Positions 9,238 through 44,427 of a stretch of DNA of 64,000 nt are shown here, piece after piece (position 1 is the stretch's first letter; each line of letters begins with the position of its first letter). Made by a program: the position numbers and the translations under genes. The DNA lies in contig NZ_RQZG01000011.1 in the NCBI RefSeq assembly GCF_003859805.1, positions 1 to 64,000 on the forward strand, read 5' to 3'. The notes under the pieces were generated by a model. It was not told where the DNA came from. It saw nothing but the letters and a program-made list of their open reading frames with translations, and did not search any database. The stretch comes from Arachnia propionica (GTDB lineage Bacteria; Actinomycetota; Actinomycetes; Propionibacteriales; Propionibacteriaceae).

Positions 9238-9250
9238 TAGATTCGGGGCA
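9238..9250 (+). promoter_or_regulatory. Candidate leaderless promoter of the SWIM gene
   Basis: A TAGATT -10-like hexamer (9238-9243) ends 6 bases before the ATG at 9250, and no Shine-Dalgarno sequence is present. The same spacing is seen at six other genes in the window. No good -35 is visible. Confidence 0.45.
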
Positions 9251-10611
9251 TGAGGACTTTCGCTTCCGCGTCGCTGCTCGACGACGCCGGCCTCAGCCTG
9301 GAGCTGGCCCCGGCGTTGACCCCCTCCGGGCTCGTGGACCGCCCGGAGTTCTTCTCCGGCTTCGCCGCCCAGCCGACGGTGTTGGCCCGGGGACTGCTGG
9401 TCCTGGCGGACGTGGCCCAGACCCGCTACTTCCAGCCGATCCCCGCCGGGGCACGGGACCCGATCTGCACCGCGAACGGGGACCGGATGCGGTTCGAGTC
9501 GTTCTCGGCGTGCAACACCGTCGGTGTCAGGCTGGACCTGCTGGCCTCGGCCTTCGACGGGGGCGACATCCAGCACGGCACCACGAATGTGGACATCAAC
9601 GCGCCGCTGCGGGAAGCGTTGACGCAGATCACCTCGTCGGAGCTCATGCACCTGGCGGTCGGCCGGGACGAGATGCGGGTCTCGACGCTGGAGGGCACCC
9701 ACGTGGAACGGAAGGTGGACCTGCCGGACCGCTGGCTCAAGGCGCTCGGCTCGTCGCAGGAACTGAGCCGGGACCTGGAACTCGTCGGGGAGGCCCCGGC
9801 GGTGCAGACCCGCCAGTTCCTGGCCGCCATCCCCTCCGGCTCCGGCAGGAAGGGCCACTGGGCCATCAGCCGGTTGGGGGTCAAGCCCGCCCTGCGTCCC
9901 GGCAAGGGCACCGTCTACGCGGAGGGCCTCAACCGGCTGCGGGCCGCCAGGCGCCTCAGCCCGCAGATCATGGGGCTGCGGGTCTACGCCAAGCCGGGCG
10001 AGCCCCTGTCGCCGTCGGTGTGGGAGTTCACCCTGCCGCACGGGCGGCTCAGCTTCACGCTGACCCCGGAGTTCTACCGTGGCTTCTCGGGCGAGGGGGC
10101 GCTGCTGATGAAGCTCGCCGCATCCACGGCCCTCGACGACGCGAACCTCATCGCGGCCTGCCTCGCCTTCGAGCCCCGCATCGACGTGGACTCCCTGGTC
10201 AAGGACACGGCCCTCAGCAAGGAACGGGTCGGCGAGGGGTTGGCGGTGCTCGCCAACGACGGCCGCGTCGGCTACGACCTCTTCGAGCAGGCCTACTTCC
10301 ACCGGGAGCTGCCCTCGGACAGCAACCGCGTCGAGAAGGCCAACCCACGGCTCAAGCAGGCCCGACGCCTCATCGCGGAGGGGGCCGTCGCCCCGTACGA
10401 GGGTCACGACGGGGTGTTCCGGGTCCGCGGCGACCACGGCGAGTACATCGTCCGCACCGAACCCACCAGCTGCACCTGCCTGTGGTGGCGGGACCACCAG
10501 GGCTCGCGGGGGGTGTGCAAGCACGTGCTCGCAGTGGAACTGCAGCGACGCGAGTCGATGCCCGACGACGCCGCCGCGGCTCCCGACCCGGCCCGGGAAC
10601 TGCAGCACTGA
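9250..10611 (+). CDS. SWIM zinc-finger domain protein heading the giant-paralogue array
   Basis: The 453-aa product carries a SWIM zinc finger near its C-terminus: Cys408, Cys410, Cys423 and His425 in CTC-x12-CKH (CxCxnCxH). SWIM fingers bind DNA or proteins; the first 400 residues are a conserved-looking domain I cannot name (LTPSGLVDRPEFFSGF, then FSACNTVGVRLDLLASAF). In other actinobacteria, SWIM proteins of this kind are, from memory, found beside large DUF6493/DUF7824/DUF7825-type proteins, and the genes that follow here look like such proteins. It is the first gene of the array and probably leaderless. A 14-bp hairpin separates it from the next gene. A role as DNA- or protein-binding partner of the array products is inference. 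Confidence 0.85.
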   Translation: MRTFASASLLDDAGLSLELAPALTPSGLVDRPEFFSGFAAQPTVLARGLLVLADVAQTRYFQPIPAGARDPICTANGDRMRFESFSACNTVGVRLDLLASAFDGGDIQHGTTNVDINAPLREALTQITSSELMHLAVGRDEMRVSTLEGTHVERKVDLPDRWLKALGSSQELSRDLELVGEAPAVQTRQFLAAIPSGSGRKGHWAISRLGVKPALRPGKGTVYAEGLNRLRAARRLSPQIMGLRVYAKPGEPLSPSVWEFTLPHGRLSFTLTPEFYRGFSGEGALLMKLAASTALDDANLIAACLAFEPRIDVDSLVKDTALSKERVGEGLAVLANDGRVGYDLFEQAYFHRELPSDSNRVEKANPRLKQARRLIAEGAVAPYEGHDGVFRVRGDHGEYIVRTEPTSCTCLWWRDHQGSRGVCKHVLAVELQRRESMPDDAAAAPDPARELQH

Positions 10612-10617
10612 CCCCCT

Positions 10618-10655: not shown

Positions 10656-10678
10656 CATCACGTCCCATGGAAGGAACC

Positions 10679-11146
10679 ATGACCAGCACCCCCGGCAACC
10701 ATCATGGCGGACCACACGGCCCCGCCATGACGGTGGAGGACTTCTTCGCCCGGGTCAGCGTCGACGAGGCGAAGCAGGTCGTCGGGCTGCTCCTCACCGC
10801 CTGGGAGCAGGGTCGGCTGAGCGGTGACGAGCTCGCGGCCGGGTGGCGCCCGGACTGGCAGGAGGTCGCCCCGCTCCAGCCCGCCAGGATCGTCGCCCTC
10901 CTCGACACGCTCACCGCGGCCGGGGCGGCTCCCCTGGCCTGGCCGCTGCTCGGCCTGGTCACGGAGCATCTCGCCGCAACCCACCCCACGCCCGCCGCCA
11001 CCACCAGGGCCCTCACCCTCCTCGGCACGGTCCTGCCTGCCGCCCGCGCCGCAGGGCACCCCGTTTCCCTCCCCCACACCCAGGCGCTCGCCGCCCACAC
11101 GGGCAGCGGCCAGGCCGTCCGGGCCGCCCGCGCCCTCAGCCTCTGA
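10679..11146 (+). CDS. Stand-alone C-terminal module of the array family (155 aa)
   Basis: This small protein corresponds to only the last ~120 residues of the giant paralogues. AWEQGRLSGDELAAGWR matches AWDEGRLxxDDLxAGWR in the big proteins, and APLAWPLLGLVTEHLAATHP matches LALVWPLLVVIAEELAAAEK. It ends in a diverged form of the terminal ELPNIxALAxRKGSSKA block (SLPHTQALAAHTGSGQA). The ATG at 10679 has GGAAGGAACC directly upstream; ATG 10667 is an alternative. An N-terminal His-rich stretch (NHHGGPHG) is not shared with the paralogues. Its survival as a free protein between the SWIM gene and the array suggests the module folds on its own and may be an interaction domain. This last point is inference. 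Confidence 0.8.
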   Translation: MTSTPGNHHGGPHGPAMTVEDFFARVSVDEAKQVVGLLLTAWEQGRLSGDELAAGWRPDWQEVAPLQPARIVALLDTLTAAGAAPLAWPLLGLVTEHLAATHPTPAATTRALTLLGTVLPAARAAGHPVSLPHTQALAAHTGSGQAVRAARALSL

Positions 11147-11156
11147 AAGGACCCCC

Positions 11157-13541
11157 ATGGCCAGAACCCCCGAGCATCCCGACGCGAAGGCCGTGCGCCG
11201 CCTCGTCATGGACGCAGGCGGCCCCGTCGCGCTGCTGCGGCAGCTCCGCTCCCTGTCGGGTGAGGATCGGGCGCGCTTGGAAGCCACCTTCGCCGAGCAC
11301 CGGGACGACATCGTCCGTCGCCTGCGCAGCAGCGAGTTCAAGGGGGAGCTGGCGGTCCTGATGGTCGAGCTGGGGGTCACCCCGGAGCAGTTCGCCGAGA
11401 CCGTCGACGCGTGGTTCCGTGGCTTCATCGACGACGGGGACACCCTCGACGCGCTGGGTGAGGCCCTGATCGACCGGGGCCCCGCGTGGGGTCAGCGGCT
11501 GGTGGACGCGTACCTGAGCAGCAGGTCGCCGCGGGCCTGGGTCTCGCTCATCCTCGACCCGATCATCATCACCCACGAGCTGCCGCTGCCCTCGGATGCG
11601 GACTACCTCACCGACTGGCTGCGGCGCTGGGGGGGACCGGCCCCCGGCCGTCGCTGGCAGGAGCTGTTCCTCGCCGCCTGCTCGCATCCCGACGCGCTGG
11701 GCACCCCGATGGGTCCGAGGGCCAGGTTGCTGCACTGGCTCCGGCACGGGACCTCCATCCTGCGCCGGGCGGAGCCGCTTGACGACGTCGCCCTCGCCGA
11801 TGCCCTGCTCGGGATCATCGAGCGCGGCGACCGGCCCGCCGCCCAGTCCAATGCGACGGTGTGGCTGGAGGGCCTCGGCCTGGTCGAGGAGGTCTGGCGG
11901 CAGCGGGAACGGCTGCTGGCCATGCTGCCGAACGCCCACTCGACGGTCGTCGCCTTCGCCTGCGCCCAGCTGCTTCGCCCCGACCTCAGCGACGAACACC
12001 TCGAGGCCCTCGCCGTCGAGGTCCTCTCCCGCAAGGAGAAGGCGCCGAAGAAGCGCATCCTGAAGCACCTCGGCCGCCTCGCCGCGCCGGGGCCGGATCT
12101 GGCGGCCGCGTTGCAGGGCCTCGCCAAGGAGGCCGACACCACTGTGGCCACGGCGGCGATGAAACAGCTGGGTGCGTGGGGCATCCAGCTGGATGCAGTC
12201 GACGAGCTGAGCGGCCTGTGGCAGGAGCCACTCGGCGAGATCGAGCCCCTCGCCTCGCGGCCGAGGGTCCTCGACGACCCGGGGCTGGCGGAGCTCATCA
12301 CCGTCATCACCGGCGACCCCCGGAGCAGTGGTGAGTTCGAGGAGCAGCTGGCGGATCTGGTGGCCACCGCCCATTCACGGGGGCTCACCGACGTGCTGGC
12401 GGTGCTGGAGCAGTTCGACCTTCGCCCGCTGGAGTACGAGTACCTCGACCGGCCGGTCCTCGCCGAGGCCCTGGTCCATCTCGTGCACGACGAGGAGCTG
12501 CCGGTACCGAGGACCCGGCAGCTGACCCGGCTGGTCCTCGGCCACGCGTTGGCCGTCACCCGTCGGCTGGGGGAGCTGCCCTGCCTGCTGTCCACGCCGA
12601 CCCGTCACAGCAACCATCTCACCTGGCGGGCGCTGCTGCAGCGGGCCTCCCGGTATCGCGACCTCGGCGTCGCGCTGGAGGCCACCGACGTGCTGGCGGC
12701 GCTCAGCCGCGTCGATCCCGACGGGGCACCGTCGGATCTCGCGGCCCTGGAACAGCCGATCCGGGGGCTGGATCGCACCCTGGCCGAGGTGGTCCGGATC
12801 TGGCTGCGTCGCCCCTACCGGCCACGGCTGGAGGTGTTGCCGCCGAACGGCGCCGGGCATCGCGACGGCGGCCCCCACATGCGCTGCAAGCTGGACGACG
12901 ACAAACCCGCCCTCGTGGTGGCGCTCGGGCTGATGGAGCTGTGGAATGCGCCCGACGAGGGGTACTACGCCGAGCGGACGGAGGCGCTGCGCCTGCTCCC
13001 CGGGCTCCCCCATCGCGCGGCGCTGAGGATCCTCAAACTGACCTACCGGATGGGGTCCGGTGCCGGGCTGGAGGATCTGCCGGAAGTCGGGCACGTGGCC
13101 CACCCGTTCGGCCCGGTGCTGACGTTGGCCTGCCTCGCCGTCGCCTCCGAGGGCACCCCGGCCCACCGCGAGGAGGTCGCCGCCGTCCTGTACGGGGCGT
13201 GGCAGGACGGCAGGCTGCGGGCGGAGGATCTGGTGGATGCGTGGGTCAGCCCGCAGTCCCGCGAGTTCCAGCTGTCGCCCGCGAAGGTCACCTCGATGCT
13301 CCGGCTGCTGGCCGAGACGGGCGCACTGGCCCTGGTCTGGCCGCTGCTGGTGGTGATCGCGGAGGAACTCGCCGCAGCCGAGAAGGTCCCCGCCACGGCC
13401 TCGACGGTGTTCGAGACGGTGCTCGCCCTCCTGCCCGAGGTCCCGCACGCGACCGAGCTGCCCAACATCACCGCCTTGGCCGCCCGCAAGGGTAGCTCCA
13501 AGGCCATCACCCTCGCCCGAGCCATCGAGGAGAAACTGTGA
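11157..13541 (+). CDS. Giant array paralogue A (794 aa)
   Basis: First full-size member of the array. The start at ATG 11157 is preceded by GAAAGG; the open frame runs further upstream but overlaps the previous gene. It has the family landmarks in order: a GRRWQELFLAAC block (near residue 165), RRAEPLDDVALADALLGIIERGDRP, SRKEKAPKKRILKHLGRL, SGLWQEP, LADLVATAHSRG, RLGELPCLLSTP, LEATDVLAALSRV and the C-terminal LALVWPLLVVIAEELAAAEK and ELPNITALAARKGSSKA. Predicted all-helical with amphipathic periodicity, so I infer an alpha-solenoid. No signal peptide, membrane segment or catalytic motif is seen. Unlike B-E it lacks the MTIxIP start. The stop overlaps the next start (GTGA). I recall similar proteins as DUF6493/DUF7824/DUF7825; function is unknown. 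Confidence 0.85.
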   Translation: MARTPEHPDAKAVRRLVMDAGGPVALLRQLRSLSGEDRARLEATFAEHRDDIVRRLRSSEFKGELAVLMVELGVTPEQFAETVDAWFRGFIDDGDTLDALGEALIDRGPAWGQRLVDAYLSSRSPRAWVSLILDPIIITHELPLPSDADYLTDWLRRWGGPAPGRRWQELFLAACSHPDALGTPMGPRARLLHWLRHGTSILRRAEPLDDVALADALLGIIERGDRPAAQSNATVWLEGLGLVEEVWRQRERLLAMLPNAHSTVVAFACAQLLRPDLSDEHLEALAVEVLSRKEKAPKKRILKHLGRLAAPGPDLAAALQGLAKEADTTVATAAMKQLGAWGIQLDAVDELSGLWQEPLGEIEPLASRPRVLDDPGLAELITVITGDPRSSGEFEEQLADLVATAHSRGLTDVLAVLEQFDLRPLEYEYLDRPVLAEALVHLVHDEELPVPRTRQLTRLVLGHALAVTRRLGELPCLLSTPTRHSNHLTWRALLQRASRYRDLGVALEATDVLAALSRVDPDGAPSDLAALEQPIRGLDRTLAEVVRIWLRRPYRPRLEVLPPNGAGHRDGGPHMRCKLDDDKPALVVALGLMELWNAPDEGYYAERTEALRLLPGLPHRAALRILKLTYRMGSGAGLEDLPEVGHVAHPFGPVLTLACLAVASEGTPAHREEVAAVLYGAWQDGRLRAEDLVDAWVSPQSREFQLSPAKVTSMLRLLAETGALALVWPLLVVIAEELAAAEKVPATASTVFETVLALLPEVPHATELPNITALAARKGSSKAITLARAIEEKL

Positions 13542-16078
13542 CCATCAACATCCCGCAGATCGTCGCCCACGCCGACGACGTCGCTGCTCTCGTCGCCCGG
13601 CTGGAGACCCTCAGCGACGAGGAACGCGCCCGCTGGGCGGAGGCGATGGTGGCGTCGCTGCCGGTGTGGCGGCGGCTGCTGCGCGGGGATCACGACGTCA
13701 GTTACTGGGTGCTCGACCCGGCCTCGCCGACCGCCGAGTTCGAGGCCCAGGTCAAGAAGGCTTTCACGCGCCGCTACACCTCGATGTACCGCCTCGTCCT
13801 GGTCACCGTCGCGCTCGGGGCCAGCCCCGCCCAGACCCTCGACCTGTTCGACTCCGACACCGTCCCCCTGCTCGGTCAGTACAAAGTGCTCCCCGCCCTG
13901 GCCGACGCCGTCATCGCGCGCGGCCCCGACTGGACCGCCGAGTTCGTCGCGGGGTTGACCGGCGGCCCGAGGAATCGACGGCTCGCCCGCAGCGTGGCGC
14001 CCCTGGTGCCGAGGCTCGTCGCGGCCTTCGACCTGCCACTCCCGACGAGCCCGGACTATCTGACCGGCTGGGCCGGGACCCTGCCGAGGCCCGGGCGGGC
14101 CTGGCAGGAGCACTTCCTCGCCGCCTGCGAGGTGCCGGGGGCCTTCAGCAACGCCATCGCGAGCCCGAGGAAGCACGTCGAGGACATCCGCAGGGCGGCA
14201 CGGAAGCACCGGATCGAGGAGCCCACCGACGACGCGCCCCTCCTCGACGCGCTCCTCGGCGTCATCGAACGTGACTCCAGACCCGGCACGCAGCGGGAGG
14301 CCCTGGCCTGGATCGAGGGCCTGGACCTCGACCTCACCACCCGCGCCGATCGGCTGCTGCGGATCCTTCCGGTGGCGGATGCCCGCGTCGTCGCGGCCTT
14401 CACCGCCGTCCTGCTGGGCGGCGATCTCGACGACGACGCCCTCGCCGGGCTCGCCCTGGCGATCCTGCCCCGCAAGGAGAAGGGGCTTCGACGCGACGTG
14501 CTGAAGCGCCTCGGGCACCTCGCCACCCCGTCGCCGGAGCTGATCGAACTGGTCGCCGGCCTCAGCAGCGACACCGACTCGACCATCGCGACGCTCGCCA
14601 GCACACTGTGCGAGTCGTGGGGCGGCGCACCGGCCCAGGACACCGGGACCCGGGGCCTGTGGCAGGAACCGTCGCTGCCGAACCCCGGCCCTTTCCCCGG
14701 CCTGGAGGCACTGGTCCTCGACGACCCGGGGCTGGCCGCCCTGGTCTCAGCCGTCGTCGAGGCGTGGGAGGAGGACCCCACCGTCACGGAGCGGGCGCTG
14801 GCCCAGCTCGTCGCCACGGCCCACGAACGCGGCACCGAGGTGGTGGTAGCGGCCTGCACCGACCTCGAGGCGGAGGACGAGTCGTCCTACCTGCAGCGGC
14901 TGCTCGCCGAGATCGGTGACGGCACCCTCACCCCCGGCACCGAGCCGCCGGAGGTCGAACCCGACGGCGGCCCACTGCTGTACCTCGCGGCCGAGCGCGC
15001 CCGCGCCGTCTGCCACGGGCTGGGGCGGCTGCCCTGCCTGCTGTCGACCCCGAGCGATGCCCGGTTCCGGGTCAGCGTCGACGATCTGCGTTCCCGTGCC
15101 ACCCGGTACGTCGAGGCCGGGGTGCCCCTGGAGGCGACGGATGTCGCCGTCGCGCTGGGACGTCTCAGTCGTGCCGAGGTCACGGATCTCGACGGACTCG
15201 AGGTCCCCATCCGTGACTGTGACCTGCGGCTGGCGGATGTCATCGACACGTGGCGCCAGGCGGGGCCCGGATCAGCCTGGCTCGAGTCGGAGGCGGTGAA
15301 CCCGCAGTGGGGCCGCAATCTCGTCGTCGACGGCGAGGACCCGTTCTGGCACGAACTGCTGGGCCTGGACACCGCGTGGAACCGCCCGTATCGACCCGGC
15401 TGGTTCCCGCCGGACGACGAGTGGCGCCCCTCCGCCCAGTGGGGGGCGGCCGTGCTCGGCGGGGCGTTCGGCTCCCGCACCGAGTTCCCGTCGGTGTTCA
15501 CGCTGCTGCCGGGTCTGCCGTCCCGACCCGCGGCGACGGCGCTGCAGCTGCTCACCGACAGCGAGCCCTCCGCCGCGCTGGACCACGTCGTCCTGCTGGC
15601 CTCGTCCGCGTCGCGGTTCCCGGAGCTGTTGGCGGTCGCGGCGCTGGCCACGGCGACGACCGTGGCGGCGAAGGATCGGGGCCGGGTCGCCGAGCTGCTG
15701 CTGGCGGCCTGGGATGAGGGACGTCTCATCGGCGACGACCTCGTGGCCGGGTGGCGCTCCCCGGCCTGGGATGTCCTCGCTGACAAGGCCGTGGGCAAAC
15801 CCGTCGAGAACTCCCCGGCCAAGCTCGCCCCGCTGCTGAAGGACCTCGCCGAGGCCGGGGCCCTGGCCCTGGTCTGGCCGCTGCTGGTGGTGATCGCGGA
15901 GGAACTCGCCGCGCACGAGAAGACCCCGGCGGCCGCCTCAACCGTGTTCGAGACGGTGCTCGCCCTCCTGCCCGAGGTCCCGCACAAGGTCGAGCTGCCC
16001 AACATCTGTGCCCTGGCCGCCCGCAAGGGCTCGTCGAAGGCCATCACCCTGGCCCGAGCCATCGAGGAGAAACTGTGA
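13538..16078 (+). CDS. Giant array paralogue B (846 aa)
   Basis: Starts at GTG 13538, overlapping the stop of A by 4 bases, so translation is probably coupled. The N-terminus MTINIPQIVAHADDVAALVARLE is shared in form with C, D and E. Landmarks: YLTGWAGTLPRPGRAWQEHFLAAC (near residue 185), LLDALLGVIERDSRPGTQREALAWIEGLDLDL, LPRKEKGLRRDVLKRLGHL, STLCESWGGAP, GLWQEPSLP, RLPCLLSTPSDARF and LEATDVAVALGRL. The last ~65 codons and the first codons of the next gene are nearly identical in DNA to the A/B boundary, a sign of recent tandem duplication or gene conversion. Soluble and helical, without a recognisable active site. It is an unknown family member like A. Confidence 0.85.
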   Translation: MTINIPQIVAHADDVAALVARLETLSDEERARWAEAMVASLPVWRRLLRGDHDVSYWVLDPASPTAEFEAQVKKAFTRRYTSMYRLVLVTVALGASPAQTLDLFDSDTVPLLGQYKVLPALADAVIARGPDWTAEFVAGLTGGPRNRRLARSVAPLVPRLVAAFDLPLPTSPDYLTGWAGTLPRPGRAWQEHFLAACEVPGAFSNAIASPRKHVEDIRRAARKHRIEEPTDDAPLLDALLGVIERDSRPGTQREALAWIEGLDLDLTTRADRLLRILPVADARVVAAFTAVLLGGDLDDDALAGLALAILPRKEKGLRRDVLKRLGHLATPSPELIELVAGLSSDTDSTIATLASTLCESWGGAPAQDTGTRGLWQEPSLPNPGPFPGLEALVLDDPGLAALVSAVVEAWEEDPTVTERALAQLVATAHERGTEVVVAACTDLEAEDESSYLQRLLAEIGDGTLTPGTEPPEVEPDGGPLLYLAAERARAVCHGLGRLPCLLSTPSDARFRVSVDDLRSRATRYVEAGVPLEATDVAVALGRLSRAEVTDLDGLEVPIRDCDLRLADVIDTWRQAGPGSAWLESEAVNPQWGRNLVVDGEDPFWHELLGLDTAWNRPYRPGWFPPDDEWRPSAQWGAAVLGGAFGSRTEFPSVFTLLPGLPSRPAATALQLLTDSEPSAALDHVVLLASSASRFPELLAVAALATATTVAAKDRGRVAELLLAAWDEGRLIGDDLVAGWRSPAWDVLADKAVGKPVENSPAKLAPLLKDLAEAGALALVWPLLVVIAEELAAHEKTPAAASTVFETVLALLPEVPHKVELPNICALAARKGSSKAITLARAIEEKL

Positions 16079-24108: not shown

Positions 24109-24888
24109 TCAGCTCGCATCCCGGAGTTGGAGTGTGAGCCATTCCTCGGATTTGTCAATGATTCGCTCGCCGTCGTGATCCAGTGTTGCGACGTGATACG
24201 AGTTTGGCAGGTCCACGACTGTGATTTCAGGAGCGGGGGAGCGTTCAACGATCAGGCGCAGCGAGGTGGCGTCGATCACATGGTCCGCTCGTGACCTGAA
24301 CATGAGCAACGGGTGACGCACCCGGGGGAGGCCCCTGTTCGTCTCATCCCAGAGGTCGAGCATGGAGGCCGCGGCTCGAAGCGGTGTGCGCCGATATGCA
24401 TGGTCGGTGACGTTCGGCTTGCAGATGTCGCCGCCGAGCGCGGGTGACGAGGATTTGAACTTCGCGAGGAGTGGAAGCAATCGCATGTGCCATCCCGAGA
24501 GCGCAAGGGCTGGGTTGACGAGCATCACGCCGGCAACGGCACTTTGACGTTGTTGCGCCAGCCGCAAGGCGAGCGCCCCGCCCATGGACAGCCCCGCCGC
24601 GAACACCACGTTGCACTCACGAGCCAAATCGTCGAATGCTCGCTCCAGCTCGTTGTACCAGTCCACCCAAGTTGTCTTGTTGAGGTTGCGCCAGTTCGTG
24701 CCGTGACCGGGCAGGAGGGGAACAGAGACGCGGTAGCCCTTGCTCGCAAGGCCGGCTGCCCACGGTTTCATGGGCCACGGAGACCCAGTGAATCCGTGGC
24801 TGAACACTATGCCGACGGGGCCAGATCCTGCCGTCAAAGGAGTGGCGTAGCCAGGAATCGTCGGCTCGGTTTCTTCATACTCTGTCAT
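24109..24888 (-). CDS. Alpha/beta-hydrolase, carboxylesterase Est30-like
   Basis: A 259-aa serine hydrolase with HGFTGSPWPM (oxyanion loop), nucleophile elbow GLSMGG, acid Asp in SRADHVIDATSL and catalytic His in NSYHVATLDHD. This arrangement matches bacterial monoacylglycerol lipase/carboxylesterases such as Est30. No signal peptide, so it is cytosolic. The ATG at 24888 overlaps the stop of the EamA gene (ATGA) and has GGAGATTCA upstream. Its substrate is unknown. Confidence 0.88.
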   Translation of the reverse strand: MTEYEETEPTIPGYATPLTAGSGPVGIVFSHGFTGSPWPMKPWAAGLASKGYRVSVPLLPGHGTNWRNLNKTTWVDWYNELERAFDDLARECNVVFAAGLSMGGALALRLAQQRQSAVAGVMLVNPALALSGWHMRLLPLLAKFKSSSPALGGDICKPNVTDHAYRRTPLRAAASMLDLWDETNRGLPRVRHPLLMFRSRADHVIDATSLRLIVERSPAPEITVVDLPNSYHVATLDHDGERIIDKSEEWLTLQLRDAS

Positions 24889-25796: not shown

Positions 25797-25835
25797 GTCA
25801 TCAAACCTGTCAGCTGGTCAGGTATGAGTCCAACG

Positions 25836-25857
25836 CATGCTTGTCATGGTAGGCATG
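25836..25857. promoter_or_regulatory. Inverted repeat in the EamA-LysR intergenic region
   Basis: CATGC (25836-25840) and GCATG (25853-25857) form an inverted repeat spaced by 12 bp between the divergent EamA and LysR genes. The position and spacing suit a LysR-type binding site; the arms are short. Confidence 0.35.
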
Positions 25858-25875
25858 TATGGGCATCATGGATGT

Positions 25876-27575: not shown

Positions 27576-27650
27576 AGACGCTGCTGGCTGTGTGTCTGAG
27601 ATGATTTTCGGCGTGCCCGCGACCACTCCTTTCACTCCGATGGTGCTCGA
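27576..27650 (+). repeat. Shared leader sequence, copy 1 (fused to paralogue F')
   Basis: About 75 bp beginning AGACGCTGCTGGCTGTGTGT and ending GGTGCTCGA recur at 29853-29926 with roughly 85% identity and one indel. Here the sequence runs into the middle of an array paralogue (VLDDDALTELL). Confidence 0.8.
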
Positions 27651-29852: not shown

Positions 29853-29926
29853 AGACGCTGCTGACTGTGTGTCTGAGATGATCTCGATGTGCCCATGACC
29901 ACGCCTTTCAACCCAACGGTGCTCGA
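29853..29926 (+). repeat. Shared leader sequence, copy 2 (fused to C-terminal scrap)
   Basis: The counterpart of 27576-27650. After the common end GGTGCTCGA it continues into the gene's C-terminus (ETLLALLPEVPH) instead of its middle. The same GGTGCTCGA-type sequence occurs at both places in a full-length paralogue, so a short-homology deletion can explain the difference. Confidence 0.75.
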
Positions 29927-30053
29927 GACCCTCCTCGCCCTGCTGCCCGAGGTCCCCCACCCCGTCGAACTGCCCAACATCTGCGCCCTGGCCGACCGCA
30001 GAGGAAAGTCGAAGGCCATCACCACCGCCCGAGCCATCGGAGAACTGCTATGA
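29895..30053 (+). CDS. 52-aa C-terminal scrap of the array family, coupled to H
   Basis: The frame from ATG 29895 reads MTTPFNPTVLETLLALLPEV and continues through VELPNICALADRRGKSKA to AIGELL. This is exactly the last ~45 residues of the giant proteins behind a short foreign N-terminus. Its TGA overlaps the ATG of H (ATGA), reproducing the normal array junction. It may merely be a deletion product that keeps H translationally coupled, or a short peptide. No clear ribosome site is seen. Confidence 0.55.
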   Translation: MTTPFNPTVLETLLALLPEVPHPVELPNICALADRRGKSKAITTARAIGELL

Positions 30054-36017: not shown

Positions 36018-38489
36018 ATGACCGATCCCACCGCCGAGCTTCGTGCCCTGGTGCAGAGCGAGGACTGGGAACAGGTCGTCTCCGCCCTGACCGACCTCCC
36101 ACCCGAGCGGCGCTCCGCCTTGGCCAAGGCTGTCCCGAAGGTCCTCAGCCAGCTGCGGAAGACCACCATTCCCGCCACCATCATCGTCGCGGCGACGAGC
36201 CTCGACGTGACTCCCCGCGTCCTCGCCTCCACCCTCGACCCCACCACGGTGCCGCAGCTGACCGGCAATCGCGCCGCCACCGAACACGTGACCGGCCAGC
36301 TCCGGGCCCGGGACCGCGACTGGCTGACCCGGTTCATCGACGCCGCGTGCGCCCGCCGCACCACCGTGCAGCACCTGCCCAGGCTCCTCGACCCCCTCCT
36401 CGACGCCCACGGCCTGCCCCTGCCCACCGAGCCCCGCTACTGGCTCGGCTGGATGCAGTGCGGTGGTCTGCCCCGGCCCGGCATCAGGTGGCAGGACCGG
36501 TTCCTCGCCGCCTGCGCCACGTTCGGCGCGTTCCGGGTCAGCAACTTCGACCCGGAGCTGCGGGTCGGGGAGATCCGCGACGGCATCGCCGAGATCCGCT
36601 CCACGGAATCCGTCGACGCCGATGCCCTGCTCCGGGGCCTGCTGCAGGTCTTCGGACGTGGTGAGACCTCCGGCGCGCAGAACGTCGCGTTGATGTGGTT
36701 GAACGCCCTGGACCTGGCTCCCCGGCTGTGGCAGGAACGAGCCCTGGTCGTCGAGGCCCTGCCGAAGGCGAACACCGCCTTCGTGAAACTGGCCCTCGAC
36801 CACCTGATCCGCCCCGACCTCACCGACGACGAGCTGACCGCCGTCGCCGTCGCCGTGCTGCCCCGCCGCGAGAAGGGACCCCGCCGCAGCGTCCTCAAGG
36901 CCCTGTCCCGCGTCACCGAGCCCTCCGAGCAGCTGACCACCACCGTGCGCAGCGCCGCCGAGGCCGACCCGACCTGCTCGGACCTGGCCGACCGCCTGCT
37001 GAACACCTGGGAGACCCGCCACCTGCCCGCCCCACCCGTGCAGGGGCTGTGGCAGGACCCCACCGATGAGCCCGCGCATCCCCTGGACCAGCTGTCCGGA
37101 CCGTCGTTGATCCTCGACGACACCGCGCTGGCCGAGCTGTGCGCCCGCGTCGGGCACGACTACCCCGGCGATCCGGTCGTCCACGAGCAGGTGCTGGCCG
37201 CGTTGGTCGCGACGGCCCACGCCGGGAGGTTGTCGAACATCAAGGAGGCGATCTCCCGGCGGCTCGGGCTCACCGGGTTCGTCGTCAACGTGTTGGAGAA
37301 CCTGATGCTCCGCACCACCCGGGAGGTCGCCCCCGTCGAGGACCGCACGGCGGGTGGGCTGCTGGTGCAGCTGCTGGCACAGCGTGCCGCCGAGGTGATC
37401 GACGCGTTGGGGTCGATCCCCTGTCTGCTGTCGGTTCCCACCCACGACGACTTCCACATCTCCTGGGCGACCTTCGTGGAGCGGGCCGGGTCCTACTGGG
37501 ATGCGCGGGCAACGCTGTTGCCGACCGATGTGGCCGTGGCCCTGGGGCGGCTGGACCGGGGGCAGGGCATCGACCCCGACGACCTTCCACTGGTGAGGAT
37601 CCAGGGCGTCCCGGCGACGTTGGCGCAGGTGGTGGCCACCTGGCTGGCCACGCCCGGGGACCCGGCGCAACTGATCCTGCTGCCGGAGGACGAGCAGGCC
37701 ACCCGCTGGGCGAATCGGGTGGCCGCCCGGATGCGGGTGGCGGGGGAGCAGGCTGCGGCGCACCGCCCGCTCCGGCTGACGGATGCCTGGGTGGGTGAGT
37801 ACCACCCGGGCCGGGTCACCGAGGGGGACCAGGAGGCGGTGGCGGCGTTCCTGCCGGTGACCGATCCGGTGATCCGCAGTTCGCTGGGTGAGATCCCGCC
37901 GGTGCTGACGTTGATGCCGAACCGACCGGCCCGACCCGCCGCGTGGGTGCTGCACGCGCTGCTGGAGCGCGGCCCGGATGCCGCGCGGGACCCGTTCACG
38001 CTGCTGGCCCGCACTGCCCGGCCGTGGGGCAGCGTGGTGTCGCTGGTGTGGCTGCTGCTCGTGGACGCCGGCGCGGACACCGATGACGACTCCCTCGTCG
38101 CGGAGCTGCTGCGCGCCTGGCGGCGGGGGGCGGTGAGCGACGACGACCTGGTCTCGGCCTGGCACTCCCGCTACCGGGTGGTGCTGGACCCGTCGCGCAC
38201 CACCGTCGCGACGGCGTTGATCCGGGCCGCCCACCAGGGTGGCCTGGCGCTGGTGTGGCCGCTGCTCAGCCATCTCGTCGACGACCTGGCGGGTTCGCGT
38301 GGCTTCACCGGCACCACGACGCCGCTGCTGGAGGAGTTCCAGCCGCTGGTGCCGGAGGTGGTGGCCGCCGGTGTCCCGGTGGAGCTGCCGGAGATCCACA
38401 CCCTGGCCAACCACAAGGGGGCCAGCCCGACGGTGAAGGCCGCGCGCCTGATCGTCGCGGCCCTGCCGGAGCCGGAGGAGACCTGGTGA
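36018..38489 (+). CDS. Giant array paralogue J (823 aa)
   Basis: ATG 36018 follows AGGAGGAGACACC; an in-frame ATG 39 bases earlier has no such site. Landmarks: LARDRDWLTRFIDAAC-type segment, YWLGWMQCGGLPRPGIRWQDRFLAAC, DALLRGLLQVFGRGETSGAQNVALMWLNALDLAPRLW, LPRREKGPRRSVLKALSRV, GLWQDPTDE, LGSIPCLLSVPTHDDFHISWATFVERAGSYW, LLRAWRRGAVSDDDLVSAWHS, LALVWPLLSHLVDDLAG and ELPEIHTLANHKGASPTVKAARLIVAAL. It opens a two-gene coupled block (GTGA overlap with K). No catalytic motif is visible. Predicted helical. Confidence 0.85.
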   Translation: MTDPTAELRALVQSEDWEQVVSALTDLPPERRSALAKAVPKVLSQLRKTTIPATIIVAATSLDVTPRVLASTLDPTTVPQLTGNRAATEHVTGQLRARDRDWLTRFIDAACARRTTVQHLPRLLDPLLDAHGLPLPTEPRYWLGWMQCGGLPRPGIRWQDRFLAACATFGAFRVSNFDPELRVGEIRDGIAEIRSTESVDADALLRGLLQVFGRGETSGAQNVALMWLNALDLAPRLWQERALVVEALPKANTAFVKLALDHLIRPDLTDDELTAVAVAVLPRREKGPRRSVLKALSRVTEPSEQLTTTVRSAAEADPTCSDLADRLLNTWETRHLPAPPVQGLWQDPTDEPAHPLDQLSGPSLILDDTALAELCARVGHDYPGDPVVHEQVLAALVATAHAGRLSNIKEAISRRLGLTGFVVNVLENLMLRTTREVAPVEDRTAGGLLVQLLAQRAAEVIDALGSIPCLLSVPTHDDFHISWATFVERAGSYWDARATLLPTDVAVALGRLDRGQGIDPDDLPLVRIQGVPATLAQVVATWLATPGDPAQLILLPEDEQATRWANRVAARMRVAGEQAAAHRPLRLTDAWVGEYHPGRVTEGDQEAVAAFLPVTDPVIRSSLGEIPPVLTLMPNRPARPAAWVLHALLERGPDAARDPFTLLARTARPWGSVVSLVWLLLVDAGADTDDDSLVAELLRAWRRGAVSDDDLVSAWHSRYRVVLDPSRTTVATALIRAAHQGGLALVWPLLSHLVDDLAGSRGFTGTTTPLLEEFQPLVPEVVAAGVPVELPEIHTLANHKGASPTVKAARLIVAALPEPEETW

Positions 38490-40954
38490 GTCTGAAGGAC
38501 GCCCTCACCCGCGCCACAGATGCTTGCGACCTCATCACCACCATTGAGGACATCGGCGACAGCGCCCGCGCCGCGTGGGCGTCGGAGGCGAAGCGATCGA
38601 TGCCTCGGCTTCGTCGGATCGCTGACGACCTCGGCAGGCCGGAACTGGCCGTGGTCGTCGCGGCGTTCTTCGACGTCCCCGTCAAGCAGCTGGTGCTGGC
38701 GCTGGCGGATGGTTTCCTCATCGAGGAGCTCGACGAGCAGAACGCCATGACCTGGGTGGTGGAGCAACTGCGGCAGCGCGGTCCCGAGTGGGCATCGACG
38801 CTGGTGGCGGCGGCATGCGACAAGAAGCAGGCTGCAAGGTTCCGGACCCTGCTGGATGCCCTCCTCGACGCCCACGACCTACCGCTGCCGGATGATCCGC
38901 GCTACTGGACGAACTGGCTGCCCGGCCCGGGAAAGGTGCTGCCCGGGCGGCGGTTCTGGGCGCGACTGGTGAGGGCCGCCACCGTCAGGGACGCCTTCAC
39001 GGGGTGGATCCCGCCCGGATACTTCGACGAGCTGGCCGGGCCGGTCGCGACGCTCAGGGCCGCCGAACCGGTTCCCGACGACGTGCTCCCGGCCCTGGTC
39101 CAGGTGTTCACCCGGGGCGACCGCCCCGCCGCGCAGCAGTACGCGCTGGGCTGGATCGACCTGCTCGGGATGCGCTGCGAGCTGTGGCAGCACCGAGGCG
39201 TGCTGTGTGATGCGCTCCCGTTGACGCCTTCGAAGGTGGCGGGGGCGATCGTCGAGGTACTGCTCCGCCCCGAACTCGACGACGACGAGCTCACCGCCCT
39301 GGCCTGCGTCGGTCTGGTGCGCAAGGAGAAGGGCATTCGTCGCGCCCTGCTGAAGGCCCTCCCCCGCCTGGCTGAGCCGGGTGAGGAGCTGCGGGAGCTG
39401 GTCGCGGTGCTCGCCACCGACGGCGACACCACCACCTCGGAGCTTGCCACCCGGCTGCTCCAGGACTGGGGCGTGGCCACGACTCCGGAGGCCCTGGCGA
39501 CGGGGCTGTGGCGGGAGCCCGCCCTGACCGATCCCGAGCCGATGCCGGAGTTCAGCGACGAGGCCCTGCGGCTGGATACGGCACGGGTCGCAGACCTGCT
39601 GGGCGATGACGTCAACACCTGCGGCTTCTTCCCCCTGCTGATCGAGTGGACACCGGCGGTGCTCGTCGCGCATGCCCGCGACCACGGCGTCGATCACGTG
39701 CGGGAGTTGGTGCGGCGGCACCTCACCCAAGAGTTCGACGCATTCCCGCTTCGGGCGATGCTGCTGGCCTGGGCGGATGGGTCGGAACTCAAGGACGCCA
39801 CCGTCGCCCCGGGCGATGAGAACAGCGGGCTGTCCCTGCTGGCGGCACGGCGGATGGTGGAGGTGCTGGGGTGGCTGGGCGAGCTGCCGTGCCTGCTGTC
39901 CACGCCCAGCCATCAGGGGCTTCGGGTCTCGTGGGAGGCGTTCGCGGCCCGGGTCGGGCGCTTCCGGGAGGTCGGGCAGCCGCTCCTGGCCACCGATGTC
40001 GCCGTCGCCCTGGCCCGGCTGGACCGGGCTGCTGCGCCCGCCGATCTGAGCCCCTTCGCCCATCCGATCCACGGCGCCGAGGTCTTGTTGGATGAGGTGC
40101 TGGGCCACTGGCGGGACACCGACCCCGAACCGGTCCGGGTGAGCTTCGCACCCGCGATGAAGGATGACATCACGGCCCAGTGGCACTACCGCATGGTGGT
40201 CGACGGCGACGCACCGGTCACTCACCCGATGCTGGGCCTGTCCGATCCGTGGTCGCTCCCCCACCACGGTAGTACCTGGACCGCCCGGGTGGTCGGCATC
40301 CAGCCCCGCAGCGGGGAGCCCTTCACCGTCCCCATGCGCGATGAGGTTGCCGCCGTCGCCCAGTTGTTGCCGCAGCACCAGGCCCGCCAGGTGATGGCTG
40401 CGGTGCATCGGATGGAGCAATACGGGGTGGGGCAGGCCGCGTGGTGTCATCGGATGCTGGGGGATGTGGCCCATCCGTTCAGCGAGGCCCTCACCGTGCT
40501 GGGGCTGGCCTGGGCCGGTGGGGCGGCGCCGCAGGACCGCGACGGCATCGCCGAGCTGTGGTTGCGCGCCTGGGACGAGGGACGTCTCACGGCACAGGAT
40601 CTGGTGGGCGCCTGGCACAGTGTGCTGTGGGAGCTGCCGGACCAGTTCGGCCACACCGCCGGGCATTTCGTCCGGGCCCCGCTCAAGGTGGCTGAGGTGC
40701 TGGCGGTCATCGCCGACGGCGGCGGCCTGGCCCTGGTCTGGCCGCTGCTCGCGGTCCTCGCCGAGGAGGCAGCCGGAGCCGAGAAGCTCCCCGCCACCGC
40801 CGCCGCCCTCCTCGAGATCGTGCTGCGCCTGCTGCCCCACGTCCAGGCCGCCGGGGTCGCCGCCCTGCTGCCGAACGTCGTCGCCCTGGCATCCCGGAAG
40901 GGCAACAGCAAGGCGCTCCAGGTCGCCCGTCGGATCCGGGACTCGCTGCGATGA
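38486..40954 (+). CDS. Giant array paralogue K (822 aa)
   Basis: GTG 38486 overlaps the J stop, and GGAGGAGACC lies directly before it inside J. Landmarks: RQRGPEWASTLVAAAC, LPLPDDPRYWTNWLPGPGKVLPGRRFWARLVRAA (the RWQ block has become RRFWARL), DDVLPALVQVFTRGDRPAAQQYALGWIDLLGMRCELW, RKEKGIRRALLKALPRL, TGLWREPALTDPEPMPEF, LGELPCLLSTPSHQGLRVSWEAFAARVGRFREVG, LWLRAWDEGRLTAQDLVGAWHS, LALVWPLLAVLAEEAAGAEK and LLPNVVALASRKGNSKALQVARRI. The VxALLPNVVxLAxRKG ending is shared with L. A toxin-antitoxin pair separates it from L. Confidence 0.85.
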   Translation: MSLKDALTRATDACDLITTIEDIGDSARAAWASEAKRSMPRLRRIADDLGRPELAVVVAAFFDVPVKQLVLALADGFLIEELDEQNAMTWVVEQLRQRGPEWASTLVAAACDKKQAARFRTLLDALLDAHDLPLPDDPRYWTNWLPGPGKVLPGRRFWARLVRAATVRDAFTGWIPPGYFDELAGPVATLRAAEPVPDDVLPALVQVFTRGDRPAAQQYALGWIDLLGMRCELWQHRGVLCDALPLTPSKVAGAIVEVLLRPELDDDELTALACVGLVRKEKGIRRALLKALPRLAEPGEELRELVAVLATDGDTTTSELATRLLQDWGVATTPEALATGLWREPALTDPEPMPEFSDEALRLDTARVADLLGDDVNTCGFFPLLIEWTPAVLVAHARDHGVDHVRELVRRHLTQEFDAFPLRAMLLAWADGSELKDATVAPGDENSGLSLLAARRMVEVLGWLGELPCLLSTPSHQGLRVSWEAFAARVGRFREVGQPLLATDVAVALARLDRAAAPADLSPFAHPIHGAEVLLDEVLGHWRDTDPEPVRVSFAPAMKDDITAQWHYRMVVDGDAPVTHPMLGLSDPWSLPHHGSTWTARVVGIQPRSGEPFTVPMRDEVAAVAQLLPQHQARQVMAAVHRMEQYGVGQAAWCHRMLGDVAHPFSEALTVLGLAWAGGAAPQDRDGIAELWLRAWDEGRLTAQDLVGAWHSVLWELPDQFGHTAGHFVRAPLKVAEVLAVIADGGGLALVWPLLAVLAEEAAGAEKLPATAAALLEIVLRLLPHVQAAGVAALLPNVVALASRKGNSKALQVARRIRDSLR

Positions 40955-41270: not shown

Positions 41271-41273
41271 TCC

Positions 41274-41612: not shown

Positions 41613-41658
41613 GTACCATGCTCGGGGCCCGAAGAGTCCTGGAGGAAGGCACCCCGAC

Positions 41659-44427
41659 ATGAACCAGCTCGACGCTGCAGCCCGTCAGTTGCAGGAGTTC
41701 GCCCAAGAGCTGGAGCCGGTGGGCCTCGCCCGCGCCCTGGGTGCCATGTCCCCGGCCGAACTGGCCGAGGCGAGGGCCGCCTGGGTCGAGAACCCCATCG
41801 CCATCGGTGGCCCGCTCGGTGAGCTGAAACGCATGATTCTCCAGGCCTGGCTCGGCAACCGGACAGGCTGGTTCGCCATCCAGGTCAACAGCTGGTCGAT
41901 GAACGAGATCGTCGCCGATGACGAGCTGCGCGACCTGCTCGTCGCGCGTCTCGTGGAGCGGGGCCCAGAGTGGGTGCAGGAACTGCTGGCGGAGGTGACC
42001 GCCGATCCGGATCATGGAGCCCACGCGGCCCCGCTGCTGGACCCCGTGCTCGCCTCGCTCGGCCTGCCGGAACCAACCGACAAGGCCTATCGGCTGGGTC
42101 GACTGCGGCCGTGGGGATCGGATGAGAGTGCCGCGCTGGATGCCGTGCGCAGGAACCTCGCGGGGCTGCCGGAGCGGGAACGTGCCGAGGCGGAGCGGCT
42201 GCTCATCACCGCCCACACGTCGACGAGATATCCGGGGTGGCGTGACGGACCGCTGGGTCTGCTGGCGATCGTGCTGGTGGCGGAGCTGGGCGCGACGGCG
42301 AAGCAGACGGCGGCGGCCATCACCTCAGGCATGGTGCAGTGGTCGGACCCGGCCTTGATCCCGACGGTGCTGGCCGCGATCGAGGCGCGCGGGGAGCAGT
42401 TCGTCGCCGACTTCGTCGCAGCCGCCGTCGCAAAGCGCGCCCCGTCCGGTTTCGTCGTGCTGCTCGACCCGCTCATCCGGGACCACGGGCTGCCGCTGCC
42501 GCAGGCCCCCCGCTACTGGGAGGCGTGGGTGCGTTCCGACCCGCTGCCACGCGTCGGGGACCGCTGGCAGCAGCGGTTCCTGCTGGCCCTGGCCCAGCCG
42601 AATGTGCTGCGCACGCAGCTCTCGAAGGCGGAGCTGCAGGAGCGGGTGCGGGTCGGGATCGCCGAGGTGCATCAGGCCGAGCCGATCGACGACGACGCCC
42701 TGCTGCTGGGGCTGCTGGGCGTGGTGGAGCGCGGCGACAAGACCAGCTGCCAGCGGATCGCGCTGCACTGGCTGGAGGCCCTCGACCTGGGCCCGCGGAT
42801 CCCCGCGCACCGCGACCGGGCCCTGGCGGCCCTGGCGAGCGCTGACGCCCCCGTCGTGACGCTCGTGACCAACGCCCTGCTGGCGGGAGGGCAGGGCGAC
42901 GAGGGACTGAGTGAGCTCGCCGTGGTCGTGCTGCCCCGCACGCAGAAGGGGCCTCGAGAGAAGGTGCTGAAGGCCTTGTCGAAGCTCGATTCACCGACGG
43001 AGGAGCTGAGGGGACTCGTCGCCGCGACCGGCCACGACCCGGATGCCACCATCTCGGCGCTGGCGAGGGAGTTGTTGGCCCAGTGGGGTGAGCAGGCCGA
43101 CCCCCCGGAGCCGGTGACGGGGCTGTGGCGGGCACCGTCGCGGTGGGAGCCTGAGCCCGTCGCCGAGGTGGAGGTGCCGAACGAGTGGCCCGACAACCCG
43201 ACGGTGGAGCAGCGGGAGCAGCTGCTGGCGGCCGTCGTCGCACTGGCACACCGTGCTGGTGCGGGTGCGGTGCGGCAGCGGGTGCTGCCCGATGATCCGG
43301 GTGCCTCGGAGCGGGCGGTCCAGACGCGGCTGAAGCAGCTGCTCACGGGCAGGCAGAACCGGAAGCTGCCGAGCCCGGAGTTGCTGTCCCGGTTGCTGAT
43401 GCAGTGGCTCGCGGATGTCATCGCGCGGCTCGGTCAGCTGCCCTGCCTGCTGGCGACGCCGTCGCATCGCGGGTTGCTCGTGGCCTGGGAGGCGTTCCGG
43501 GAGCGTGCCGCCAGGTACCGGGAGGCGGGGGTCGCGCTGGTGGCCTCCGATGTGGCGGTGGCGCTGGGTCGGCTGGACCGGGCGACGCTGCTGGAGGACC
43601 TGACCGAGTTCACGCAGCCGATCGCCGGGACGCGCGTCGACCTGGCCGAGGTGCTGCGCCACTGGGCGGGGGCCGAGGAACAGCCGCTGGAGCTCACCTT
43701 CCTGACACCACCGAAGGAGCCGATCCGGTGGAGCAGCCTCAAGGCGCCGACCCGGCCCCGCATCCGGGCGACGGGGGCGGAGGCACCGTGCCACGACCTG
43801 CTCCGACTGGAATCGGGCTGGACCGGGCCGTTCGAGCCGTTGACGACCCGTGACGCCTGGTCGTGCCAGCTGCTGCCCCACGTCGCGAGCCGACCCGCCG
43901 TCGAGGGACTGCGGCTGCTGGAAGGGCTGGCGGCCCCGTGGCCGTCCGACGTGTTGGACGTGGTGGCGGTGGCGAGACCCTTGCCGCCGGTGCTGACCTA
44001 CGCGGTGCTGGTGCTCATCGGGGACACCGGGACGAGGGACCGTGACGAGATCGCTGAGGCGCTGCTTCGGGCATGGGAGGAGGGCCGCCTCAGCGGCGAC
44101 GACCTCGTCGAGGCGTGGGAGCTGCCGTGGCGGGACCACTACCCCGTCTCGGAGGGCAGGACCCTGGCGGTGCTGCAGATCCTGGCCGAGGCGGGCGCAC
44201 TGGCGCTGACCTGGCCGCTCATGGTCCATGTGGCGGAGCGGCACGCGGCGGCGGAGAAGATCCCGGCAGCGGCAGCAGGCTGGCTGGAGACGCTCCTGAA
44301 GCACCTGCCGGACGTGACCGCGGCGGGGATCCCCGCCCTGCTGCCGAACGTCGTCACCCTGGCGGGACGAAAGGGAGGCAGCAAGGCGATCCGGACGGCA
44401 CGGGAGATCACGGCGCTGCTGTCCTGA
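41659..44427 (+). CDS. Giant array paralogue L with duplicated N-terminal module (922 aa)
   Basis: Last and longest member; ATG 41659 follows GGAGGAAGGCACC. It carries the N-terminal solenoid module twice. First comes LVARLVERGPEWVQELLAEVTA...APLLDPVLASLGLPEPTDKAYRLG, then about 150 residues later LAAIEARGEQFVADFVAAAVA...LDPLIRDHGLPLPQAPRYWEAWVRSDPLPRVGDRWQQRFLLAL. The rest follows the H-K pattern: DDALLLGLLGVVERGDKTSCQRIALHWLEALDLGPRI, LPRTQKGPREKVLKALSKL, TGLWRAPS, LGQLPCLLATPSHRGLLVAWEAFRERAARYREAG, LLRAWEEGRLSGDDLVEAW, LALTWPLMVHVAERHAAAEK and LLPNVVTLAGRKGGSKA. The duplication accounts for the extra ~100-150 residues. Function is unknown. Confidence 0.85.
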   Translation: MNQLDAAARQLQEFAQELEPVGLARALGAMSPAELAEARAAWVENPIAIGGPLGELKRMILQAWLGNRTGWFAIQVNSWSMNEIVADDELRDLLVARLVERGPEWVQELLAEVTADPDHGAHAAPLLDPVLASLGLPEPTDKAYRLGRLRPWGSDESAALDAVRRNLAGLPERERAEAERLLITAHTSTRYPGWRDGPLGLLAIVLVAELGATAKQTAAAITSGMVQWSDPALIPTVLAAIEARGEQFVADFVAAAVAKRAPSGFVVLLDPLIRDHGLPLPQAPRYWEAWVRSDPLPRVGDRWQQRFLLALAQPNVLRTQLSKAELQERVRVGIAEVHQAEPIDDDALLLGLLGVVERGDKTSCQRIALHWLEALDLGPRIPAHRDRALAALASADAPVVTLVTNALLAGGQGDEGLSELAVVVLPRTQKGPREKVLKALSKLDSPTEELRGLVAATGHDPDATISALARELLAQWGEQADPPEPVTGLWRAPSRWEPEPVAEVEVPNEWPDNPTVEQREQLLAAVVALAHRAGAGAVRQRVLPDDPGASERAVQTRLKQLLTGRQNRKLPSPELLSRLLMQWLADVIARLGQLPCLLATPSHRGLLVAWEAFRERAARYREAGVALVASDVAVALGRLDRATLLEDLTEFTQPIAGTRVDLAEVLRHWAGAEEQPLELTFLTPPKEPIRWSSLKAPTRPRIRATGAEAPCHDLLRLESGWTGPFEPLTTRDAWSCQLLPHVASRPAVEGLRLLEGLAAPWPSDVLDVVAVARPLPPVLTYAVLVLIGDTGTRDRDEIAEALLRAWEEGRLSGDDLVEAWELPWRDHYPVSEGRTLAVLQILAEAGALALTWPLMVHVAERHAAAEKIPAAAAGWLETLLKHLPDVTAAGIPALLPNVVTLAGRKGGSKAIRTAREITALLS

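Follow-up and report, generated by a model that had tools for sequence, protein, structure and literature searches.

A single SWIM zinc-finger gene followed by an amplified array of helical DUF6493/DUF7824-type genes in Arachnia propionica

Organisation of the SWIM gene and the paralogue array

A stretch of 64,000 nucleotides of the Arachnia propionica genome (assembly GCF_003859805.1, contig NZ_RQZG01000011.1, positions 1 to 64,000; hereafter the window) encodes a SWIM zinc-finger protein followed by ten full-length paralogues of a large, helix-rich protein. The SWIM gene and a single helical gene form a two-gene module that is known but uncharacterised. In the Arachnia lineage, the second gene of this module has been amplified into a tandem array and dispersed copies, and this amplified array is the new element described here. 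The SWIM gene of this system was not duplicated and is strongly conserved. The window opens contig C3 of a source genome of 3.40 Mb in 77 contigs. The parts of the locus are listed below, with protein lengths in amino acids (aa).

9250..10611, + strand: SWIM zinc-finger protein, 453 aa, partner of the array
10667..11146, + strand: C-terminal remnant of a full gene named X, 139-159 aa depending on the start
11157..13541, + strand: paralogue A, 794 aa, overlapping B by 4 bp
13538..16078, + strand: paralogue B, 846 aa, overlapping C by 4 bp
16075..18612, + strand: paralogue C, 845 aa, not present between B and D in the metagenome-assembled relative (L056)
18739..21168, + strand: paralogue D, 809 aa, overlapping E by 4 bp
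21165..23603, + strand: paralogue E, 812 aa from the corrected start
24109..26754: segment unrelated to the family (Pfam), with alpha/beta-hydrolase and EamA transporter genes on the - strand and a LysR regulator gene on the + strand
27592..29007, + strand: truncated copy G, N-terminus missing, 455-471 aa
29895..30053, + strand: tail fragment of 52 aa, its stop overlapping the start of H by 4 bp
30050..32431, + strand: paralogue H, 793 aa, DUF7824 above the cut-off
32542..34728, + strand: paralogue I, 728 aa, without about the last 50 aa of the tail
36018..38489, + strand: paralogue J, 823 aa, overlapping K by 4 bp
38486..40954, + strand: paralogue K, 822 aa from the GTG at 38486
41659..44427, + strand: paralogue L, 922 aa, with an additional N-terminal module

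The ten full-length copies (A-E and H-L) are open reading frames (ORFs) of 728-922 aa, all on the + strand, and a six-frame profile search of the window returned ten long matches that coincided with them. The starts of A (11157), E (21165), J (near 36018) and K (38486) were corrected. Identity to A was 31-41% over most of the length, a range that includes truncated copy G. A preliminary description of this locus had proposed a SWIM gene with a tandem array of ten long paralogues, and ORFs, alignment and profile search confirmed it. The 155-aa module, the 471-aa truncated copy and the 52-aa scrap that it mentioned were all located (10667-11146, 27592-29007 and 29895-30053), while the profile search found no match in the window for a further, separate remnant. 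The ordered sequence landmarks it listed are real but not invariant: the RWQ motif is missing from K and the final ELPN segment from I, and LALVWPLL varies in D and L. The head-to-tail arrangement holds in that all copies lie on one strand, but it is broken between E and the truncated copy, where about 4 kb holds the EamA, LysR and alpha/beta-hydrolase genes. That segment is 99.3% identical over 2.7 kb in Arachnia propionica OH2822; in the Propionibacteriaceae metagenome-assembled genome (MAG) S30M_Sa_58, hereafter the MAG relative, E and G adjoin without it.

Four junctions (A-B, B-C, D-E and J-K) overlap by 4 bp, so that parts of the array are probably co-translated. Gaps of 1.3 kb and 0.7 kb separate I from J and K from L, respectively. 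With the C-terminus of X, the remnant behind the SWIM gene shared 87% identity, and a short N-terminal stretch matched as well; X is intact in OH2822 (L055:7732-9993), and 1.9 kb of that locus is without a counterpart in the window. Copy G carries the same truncation in three genomes and is under purifying selection, and paralogue I has nearly the same size in the two relatives (727-732 aa). The 52-aa tail fragment is identical in OH2822 and was not found before H in the MAG relative. J and its shortened OH2822 counterpart were only 57-60% identical, compared with 91-99% for the neighbours I, K and L. The N-terminal part of L matches the family profile a second time. Two copies on contig C77 (L025:8297-13940) likewise have an additional N-terminal module that matches the profile N-terminus again.

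Nine further full-length copies were located on four other contigs (C77 four, C10 three, C14 one, C4 one), and fragments with an internal stop on C10 and C13. The genome thus holds 19 full-length copies, which occupy 46.9 kb or 1.38% of its length. Three SWIM-domain matches were found in the whole genome at an expectation value (E) up to 0.001, and the nine dispersed copies sit on contigs without a SWIM match. In OH2822, the counterparts of the C10 and C14 copies share one 27-kb contig with a relative of the C77 pair (L062, L065), and the dispersed copies appear to lie in different neighbourhoods there.

The paralogues as members of one helical family

Pfam DUF7824 matched all 11 window copies scanned (E 0.012 to 1.7e-7), although only G, H and J exceeded the curated cut-off. 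Among 43 aligned members, 39 matched DUF7824 and two matched HEAT_2 (E up to 0.05). In a profile-profile comparison, the paralogues aligned with SWIM-linked DUF6493 plasmid proteins over 765 columns (probability 98.4, E 6.6e-15). The N-terminal DUF6493 domain of Pfam gave no match in the window copies up to E 0.1; it is present in the plasmid proteins and in the proteins encoded on C13. On the strength of the DUF7824 matches and the profile comparison, the window paralogues are assigned to one family, DUF6493/DUF7824, and not to unrelated families.

Simple propensities predicted a helix-rich profile (60% helix, 4% strand). The C-terminus is the most conserved part, and the least conserved 50-residue window covers residues 51-100. 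None of the 21 proteins examined has a strongly hydrophobic N-terminus, from which we infer a cytoplasmic location. Against solved structures, the paralogues gave a short match to syntaxin-12 (E 1.1e-4) and another at E 0.29, both of which were dismissed as chance similarity between helical proteins. NCBIfam returned nothing meaningful for the SWIM protein and the six copies scanned. The open-licence full-text literature that was searched contained no mention of DUF6493, DUF7824 or DUF7825, and queries combining SWIM with retron, MoxR, HEAT or DUF terms yielded nothing on point among open-licence papers. The searched terms did not occur in PMC12548924, PMC8867640 and PMC8934634, and in one passage each of PMC13001252 and PMC3491183 a SWIM family protein is merely a table entry.

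The SWIM protein

The SWIM ORF scored just above the cut-off of the Pfam SWIM model (20.2 bits, cut-off 19.6, E 4.2e-4), and its CxC...CxH zinc ligands were invariant in nine of nine aligned homologues. The ratio of nonsynonymous to synonymous substitution (dN/dS) was about 0.12-0.13, with 0.13 measured against the MAG relative. No match to solved structures was obtained for this protein. A winged helix was suspected in one stretch of it, and the search gave nothing convincing. A second SWIM system is present on contig C13 (L033:3258-9127), where a SWIM protein 40% identical to that of the window is followed by two DUF6493 genes; this SWIM protein scores higher on the PADLOC model SWIM_XIII than the one in the window.

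The window SWIM protein itself matched SWIM_XIII with E 4.5e-39, in two stretches. We take XIII to denote retron type XIII, which presumably pairs a SWIM protein with an armadillo-repeat protein, and on this basis the SWIM and helical proteins could be accessory proteins of a type XIII-like retron. This origin is very improbable, since no reverse transcriptase was seen among the Pfam-scanned window ORFs or the annotated or scanned neighbours of other pairs (no genome-wide search was made), and no helical protein tested matched a retron model. Rfam at the gathering threshold gave no RNA family match in the window; the type XIII RNA may be without an Rfam model.

Distribution of the SWIM-helical pair

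Pairs of SWIM and DUF6493 genes are found on plasmids of Streptomyces, Diaphorobacter and Asticcacaulis and on chromosomes of Actinomycetota. They agree with the window in gene order, strand and SWIM family, and a helical DUF6493/7824/7825 protein is encoded directly downstream of the SWIM gene, as here. A plasmid search with the SWIM protein gave nine matching records, of which seven were inspected, two of those being unannotated; the plasmid search with paralogue H gave no match. In the mapped single pairs, one helical gene of 626-1077 aa lies directly 3' of the SWIM gene, and Diaphorobacter HDW4B and C13 of the source genome have two. The module in other sampled lineages usually consists of the SWIM gene and one or two helical genes, mostly one, whereas the window has ten full-length genes and the source genome nine more on other contigs. 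Exceptions to the helical gene directly following the SWIM gene are these nine dispersed copies and both copies of Actinomyces dentalis.

Among 396 Actinomycetota genomes, DUF7824 was found in seven (six above the cut-off) and SWIM_XIII in eight, and all seven DUF7824 genomes were among the eight. The probability of such co-occurrence by chance is about 1e-12. In the six DUF7824 genomes other than the source genome, the two matches are no more than 3 kb apart. The eighth SWIM_XIII genome (G242) also has a helical gene after the SWIM gene, which DUF7824 missed.

Genes for acetyltransferase, PhoD, CHAT and sugar enzymes were among the ten scanned neighbours of single pairs. None of these partners recurred in every lineage, and reverse transcriptase, MoxR and vWA genes were not seen among them; gene calls were made with a simple codon-position script, which misses genes, above all in loci of lower GC content. 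Large CHAT-domain and weakly AAA-like proteins adjoin single SWIM-DUF6493 pairs (L115:12613-15453; L109:16287-19499) and were not seen in the other pairs scanned.

In the yehI-yehL-yehM-yehP-yehQ cluster of E. coli, a MoxR (yehL), a vWA (yehP) and a SWIM (yehQ) gene stand beside genes for two large uncharacterised proteins, YehI and YehM. That the window encodes part of a comparable MoxR/vWA/SWIM machine is very improbable. Profile comparison of YehQ, YehM and YehI with the SWIM and paralogue alignments gave nothing significant, a weak test given single-sequence profiles on one side. In agreement with the preliminary description, the Pfam scan, which covered part of the window ORFs, showed neither a MoxR nor a vWA gene; no genome-wide search was made.

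Within the genus, 10 of 39 genomes had any match to the paralogues in the profile search, so that copy number is not fixed. Matched segments numbered 28 in the source genome, 29 in OH2822, 21 in the MAG relative, 4-6 in three genomes and 1-4 in four more, and in two of these four (G002 and G038) they fall in one divergent gene each. These counts are minima, as limited candidates were scored per genome. For example, a divergent relative after the SWIM gene of G008 was missed and found later by locus mapping. Three or more full-length copies and a full-length SWIM protein of at least 76% identity occur in precisely the same six genomes, and the SWIM tally rises to 18 of 39 when weaker relatives are counted. 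Genome G020 contains only decayed pieces of this system, beside a separate divergent SWIM pair.

Arrays of at least three copies were limited, among the genomes sampled, to the Arachnia clade and one Actinomycetaceae MAG. [Pseudopropionibacterium] massiliense, OH2822, the MAG relative and the Actinomycetaceae MAG (S28M_Sa_25) all have the SWIM gene and then several of the same paralogues; in S28M_Sa_25 a 73%-identical SWIM gene is followed by five copies, one of them shortened. The array lies at the same site after treY-treZ-lgt in six Arachnia-clade genomes, and a remnant is found there in G020. These arrays differ in copy number and members, as lineage-specific expansions. In the draft genome of A. 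dentalis, a 67%-identical SWIM gene and two copies are spread over three contigs, an arrangement suggesting that these partners are able to act in trans. A shared partner acting in trans is favoured, too, by the nine dispersed copies of the source genome on contigs without a SWIM match and by the coincidence of three or more copies with a well-conserved SWIM protein in six genomes.

Evolution of the array

A tree of 83 sequences was built by a quick method with support from the SH-like approximate likelihood-ratio test, and seven short fragments were excluded. A, B, G, H, I, J, K and L have counterparts in both nearest genomes. D and E have a counterpart in the MAG relative; OH2822 yielded no more of E than a fragment where a contig ends, and neither C nor D was recovered there. 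B, C, D, E and G cluster as a single Arachnia group, and four of five copies of the Actinomycetaceae MAG group together (support 93) beside a single gene in the massiliense group. Long branches make the deep nodes uncertain, and the expansions appear to be independent in the two bacterial families. The expanded and diversified family beside one SWIM gene that had been proposed was thus borne out. Its description as expanding holds in that the family was amplified, but the expansion is not very recent, since orthology and gene order are conserved for most copies across the three closest genomes.

All rates come from a simple counting method. In the comparison with the MAG relative, dN/dS was 0.28-0.47 for ten array genes, 0.13 for the SWIM gene and 0.05-0.30 for 14 flanking genes, indicating that the array genes are constrained but evolve faster than their SWIM partner. 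Compared with the Actinomycetaceae MAG, the SWIM protein was 71-73% identical and the array proteins 32-38% (44% in one stretch of 162 aa). A single hotspot of variation was considered and rejected, as dN/dS was fairly uniform, at 0.22-0.76 in windows of 25 residues.

Drift of a tolerated amplification was weighed against these rates. In this explanation, copies arise and disappear by unequal crossing-over at their similar tails, and most of them would have no present role. The remnant after the SWIM gene, the 52-aa scrap, copy G, the C10 and C13 fragments and the decayed locus in G020 are all consistent with it, as is the finding that several copies resemble one another most in their tails. 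Drift is nevertheless unlikely to account for the array. Ten copies have kept open frames of 728-922 aa, the array genes compared have dN/dS well below 1, and most paralogue bodies are near synonymous saturation, so that the copies are old yet intact. The purifying selection seen weakens this explanation.

Synonymous divergence (dS) between the window and OH2822 changed along the locus. It was 0.67-0.73 at treY, treZ and lgt, 0.02-0.05 just left of the SWIM gene, 0.004-0.28 across the block except for J (0.65), and 0.02-0.39 up to about 51 kb; further right it was 0.36, 0.50, 0.58, 0.73 and 0.68. C and D lay outside this comparison. For a small, doubtful ORF at 44498-44818, the match in OH2822 lies at another place (dS 0.59). 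The flanks place the MAG relative closer (treZ dS 0.36, lgt 0.41, right flank 0.19-0.54). Low dS in the block against high dS in flanks that are closer to the MAG relative shows that the block with the SWIM gene and the array was exchanged between species, with gene-by-gene mosaicism.

The tails of some copies behaved differently from the bodies. In A, B and G, the DNA of the last approximately 81 residues was closer to that of another copy from its own genome than to the orthologue in the MAG relative in 476, 485 and 500 of 500 bootstraps, respectively, while the bodies showed the opposite. The E tail was undecided (284/500), and D, H, I, J, K and L gave no sign of this (0-1/500). Against OH2822, the orthologous tail was closer (0-18/500 bootstraps; 159 for B, whose tail is cut off). 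This pattern suggests occasional gene conversion of tails.

Genes flanking the array

A Fic-domain protein is encoded at 7789-9048, directly before the SWIM gene, and is 97% identical in OH2822; the gene was not found at the corresponding loci of the MAG relative or massiliense. On the Streptomyces HUAS 31 plasmid, another, small Fic gene likewise precedes the SWIM gene. Directly after the array, on the opposite strand, lies a gene for a serpin-family protease inhibitor (45342-46397, Pfam E 1.5e-27); serpins are uncommon in bacteria. Further right, the 249-aa protein at 49743-50492 has HEAT_2 repeats, and no relation to the array was established. The treZ gene (2390-4132) and an aspartate-kinase-like gene (54203-55477) are 50 kb apart in the window and more than 300 kb apart in four single-contig or nearly closed genomes (G012, G016, G020 and G026), indicating that the right flank of the array is not the usual neighbour of the left flank.

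Proposed role of the amplified proteins

Beyond the amplification, co-occurrence and exchange found in these genomes, we infer from sequence how the proteins may dock and function. Each helical protein would present its own variable body and work with the same SWIM protein, a shared hub with conserved zinc ligands that may bind nucleic acid or protein. Docking on the hub would probably occur via the more conserved C-terminal segment. The resulting repertoire could sense many targets, most likely phage or other foreign molecules. The helical proteins would thus be interchangeable intracellular recognition or adaptor subunits sharing one SWIM partner, plausibly in anti-phage defence or another conflict, a tentative reading to which we give a probability of roughly 0.45. 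A conflict role is favoured because the distribution is patchy, some pairs reside on plasmids, the block was exchanged between species and the SWIM protein resembles a PADLOC defence model. The contrast in rate between the SWIM gene and the array, the apparently independent expansions in two families and the conserved, partly homogenised tails also speak for recognition subunits. The preliminary description had suggested recognition of foreign or damaged molecules, which is likewise conjectural.

Several observations weigh against this reading. Most copies are stable orthologues in conserved order, which fits fixed, specialised functions as well. The dN/dS values of all array genes are below 1 with no 25-residue window above 0.76, and at the slow end G (0.28) and J (0.30) overlap with the fastest of the flanking genes (0.29-0.30). 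Docking by the tail is a guess, and copy I is without the end of the tail; homogenisation of the tails in all copies was rejected, being seen in three of ten genes and only against the MAG relative. No credible nuclease, protease or other effector or catalytic domain was found in the copies scanned, the nine dispersed ones not having been Pfam-scanned individually, and PADLOC gave only two weak matches to helical proteins (E 0.037 and 0.0056). The ten scanned neighbours of the dispersed copies looked mixed and did not resemble a defence island, and pattern scans of viral contigs with both profiles found no relative of the SWIM protein or the paralogues. Partnership is not universal either: SWIM relatives in Streptomyces cadmiisoli and Methylobacterium bullatum have no helical neighbour, G032 has a SWIM fragment and no copy, and G035, an 87% complete draft, has one copy and no SWIM match. 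Finally, an internal hydrophobic window above 1.6 in 16 of 21 proteins counts against the cytoplasmic placement.

Some of these observations would equally be expected if the copies were specialised cellular adaptors, that is, subfunctionalised parts of a physiological machine using the SWIM protein, for example in stress response or in protein or nucleic-acid handling, with a fixed client for each copy. The orthologues and gene order kept in three genomes, dN/dS below 1, the same shape of truncated G and short I in three genomes, and the scan of dispersed-copy neighbours, in which neither defence genes nor a defence island were seen, are all in line with such adaptors. They are harder to reconcile with 29 of 39 genus genomes without a match (the matches being a minimum, with the divergent G008 relative missed), the decayed remnants in G020, the exchange of the block between species, the faster evolution of the array genes than of the SWIM gene, and the rare, patchy occurrence in the phylum sample. 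Specialised adaptors are accordingly a real possibility, if not a probable one.

The reading as recognition subunits can be extended to a bacterial germline receptor repertoire, in which about 19 intracellular HEAT-like receptors with diverged bodies would share one SWIM hub. Two families of mouth-dwelling Actinomycetota would have amplified this repertoire independently, and species would trade it as one block. Arachnia and its relatives are mouth bacteria, and Arachnia presumably is a host of Saccharibacteria. The receptors would act against phages or possibly Saccharibacteria. Ultrasmall Saccharibacteria are grown in co-culture with bacterial hosts (PMC7651992). This extended version is speculative and rather unlikely as a whole.

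One constant partner with many fast-diverging, exchanged partners often means recognition. The work gives a functional hypothesis for DUF6493, DUF7824 and DUF7825. If recognition holds, the Arachnia array would offer an accessible model of the way in which one gene gives rise to a receptor repertoire, and relatives with a single copy could serve for comparison.

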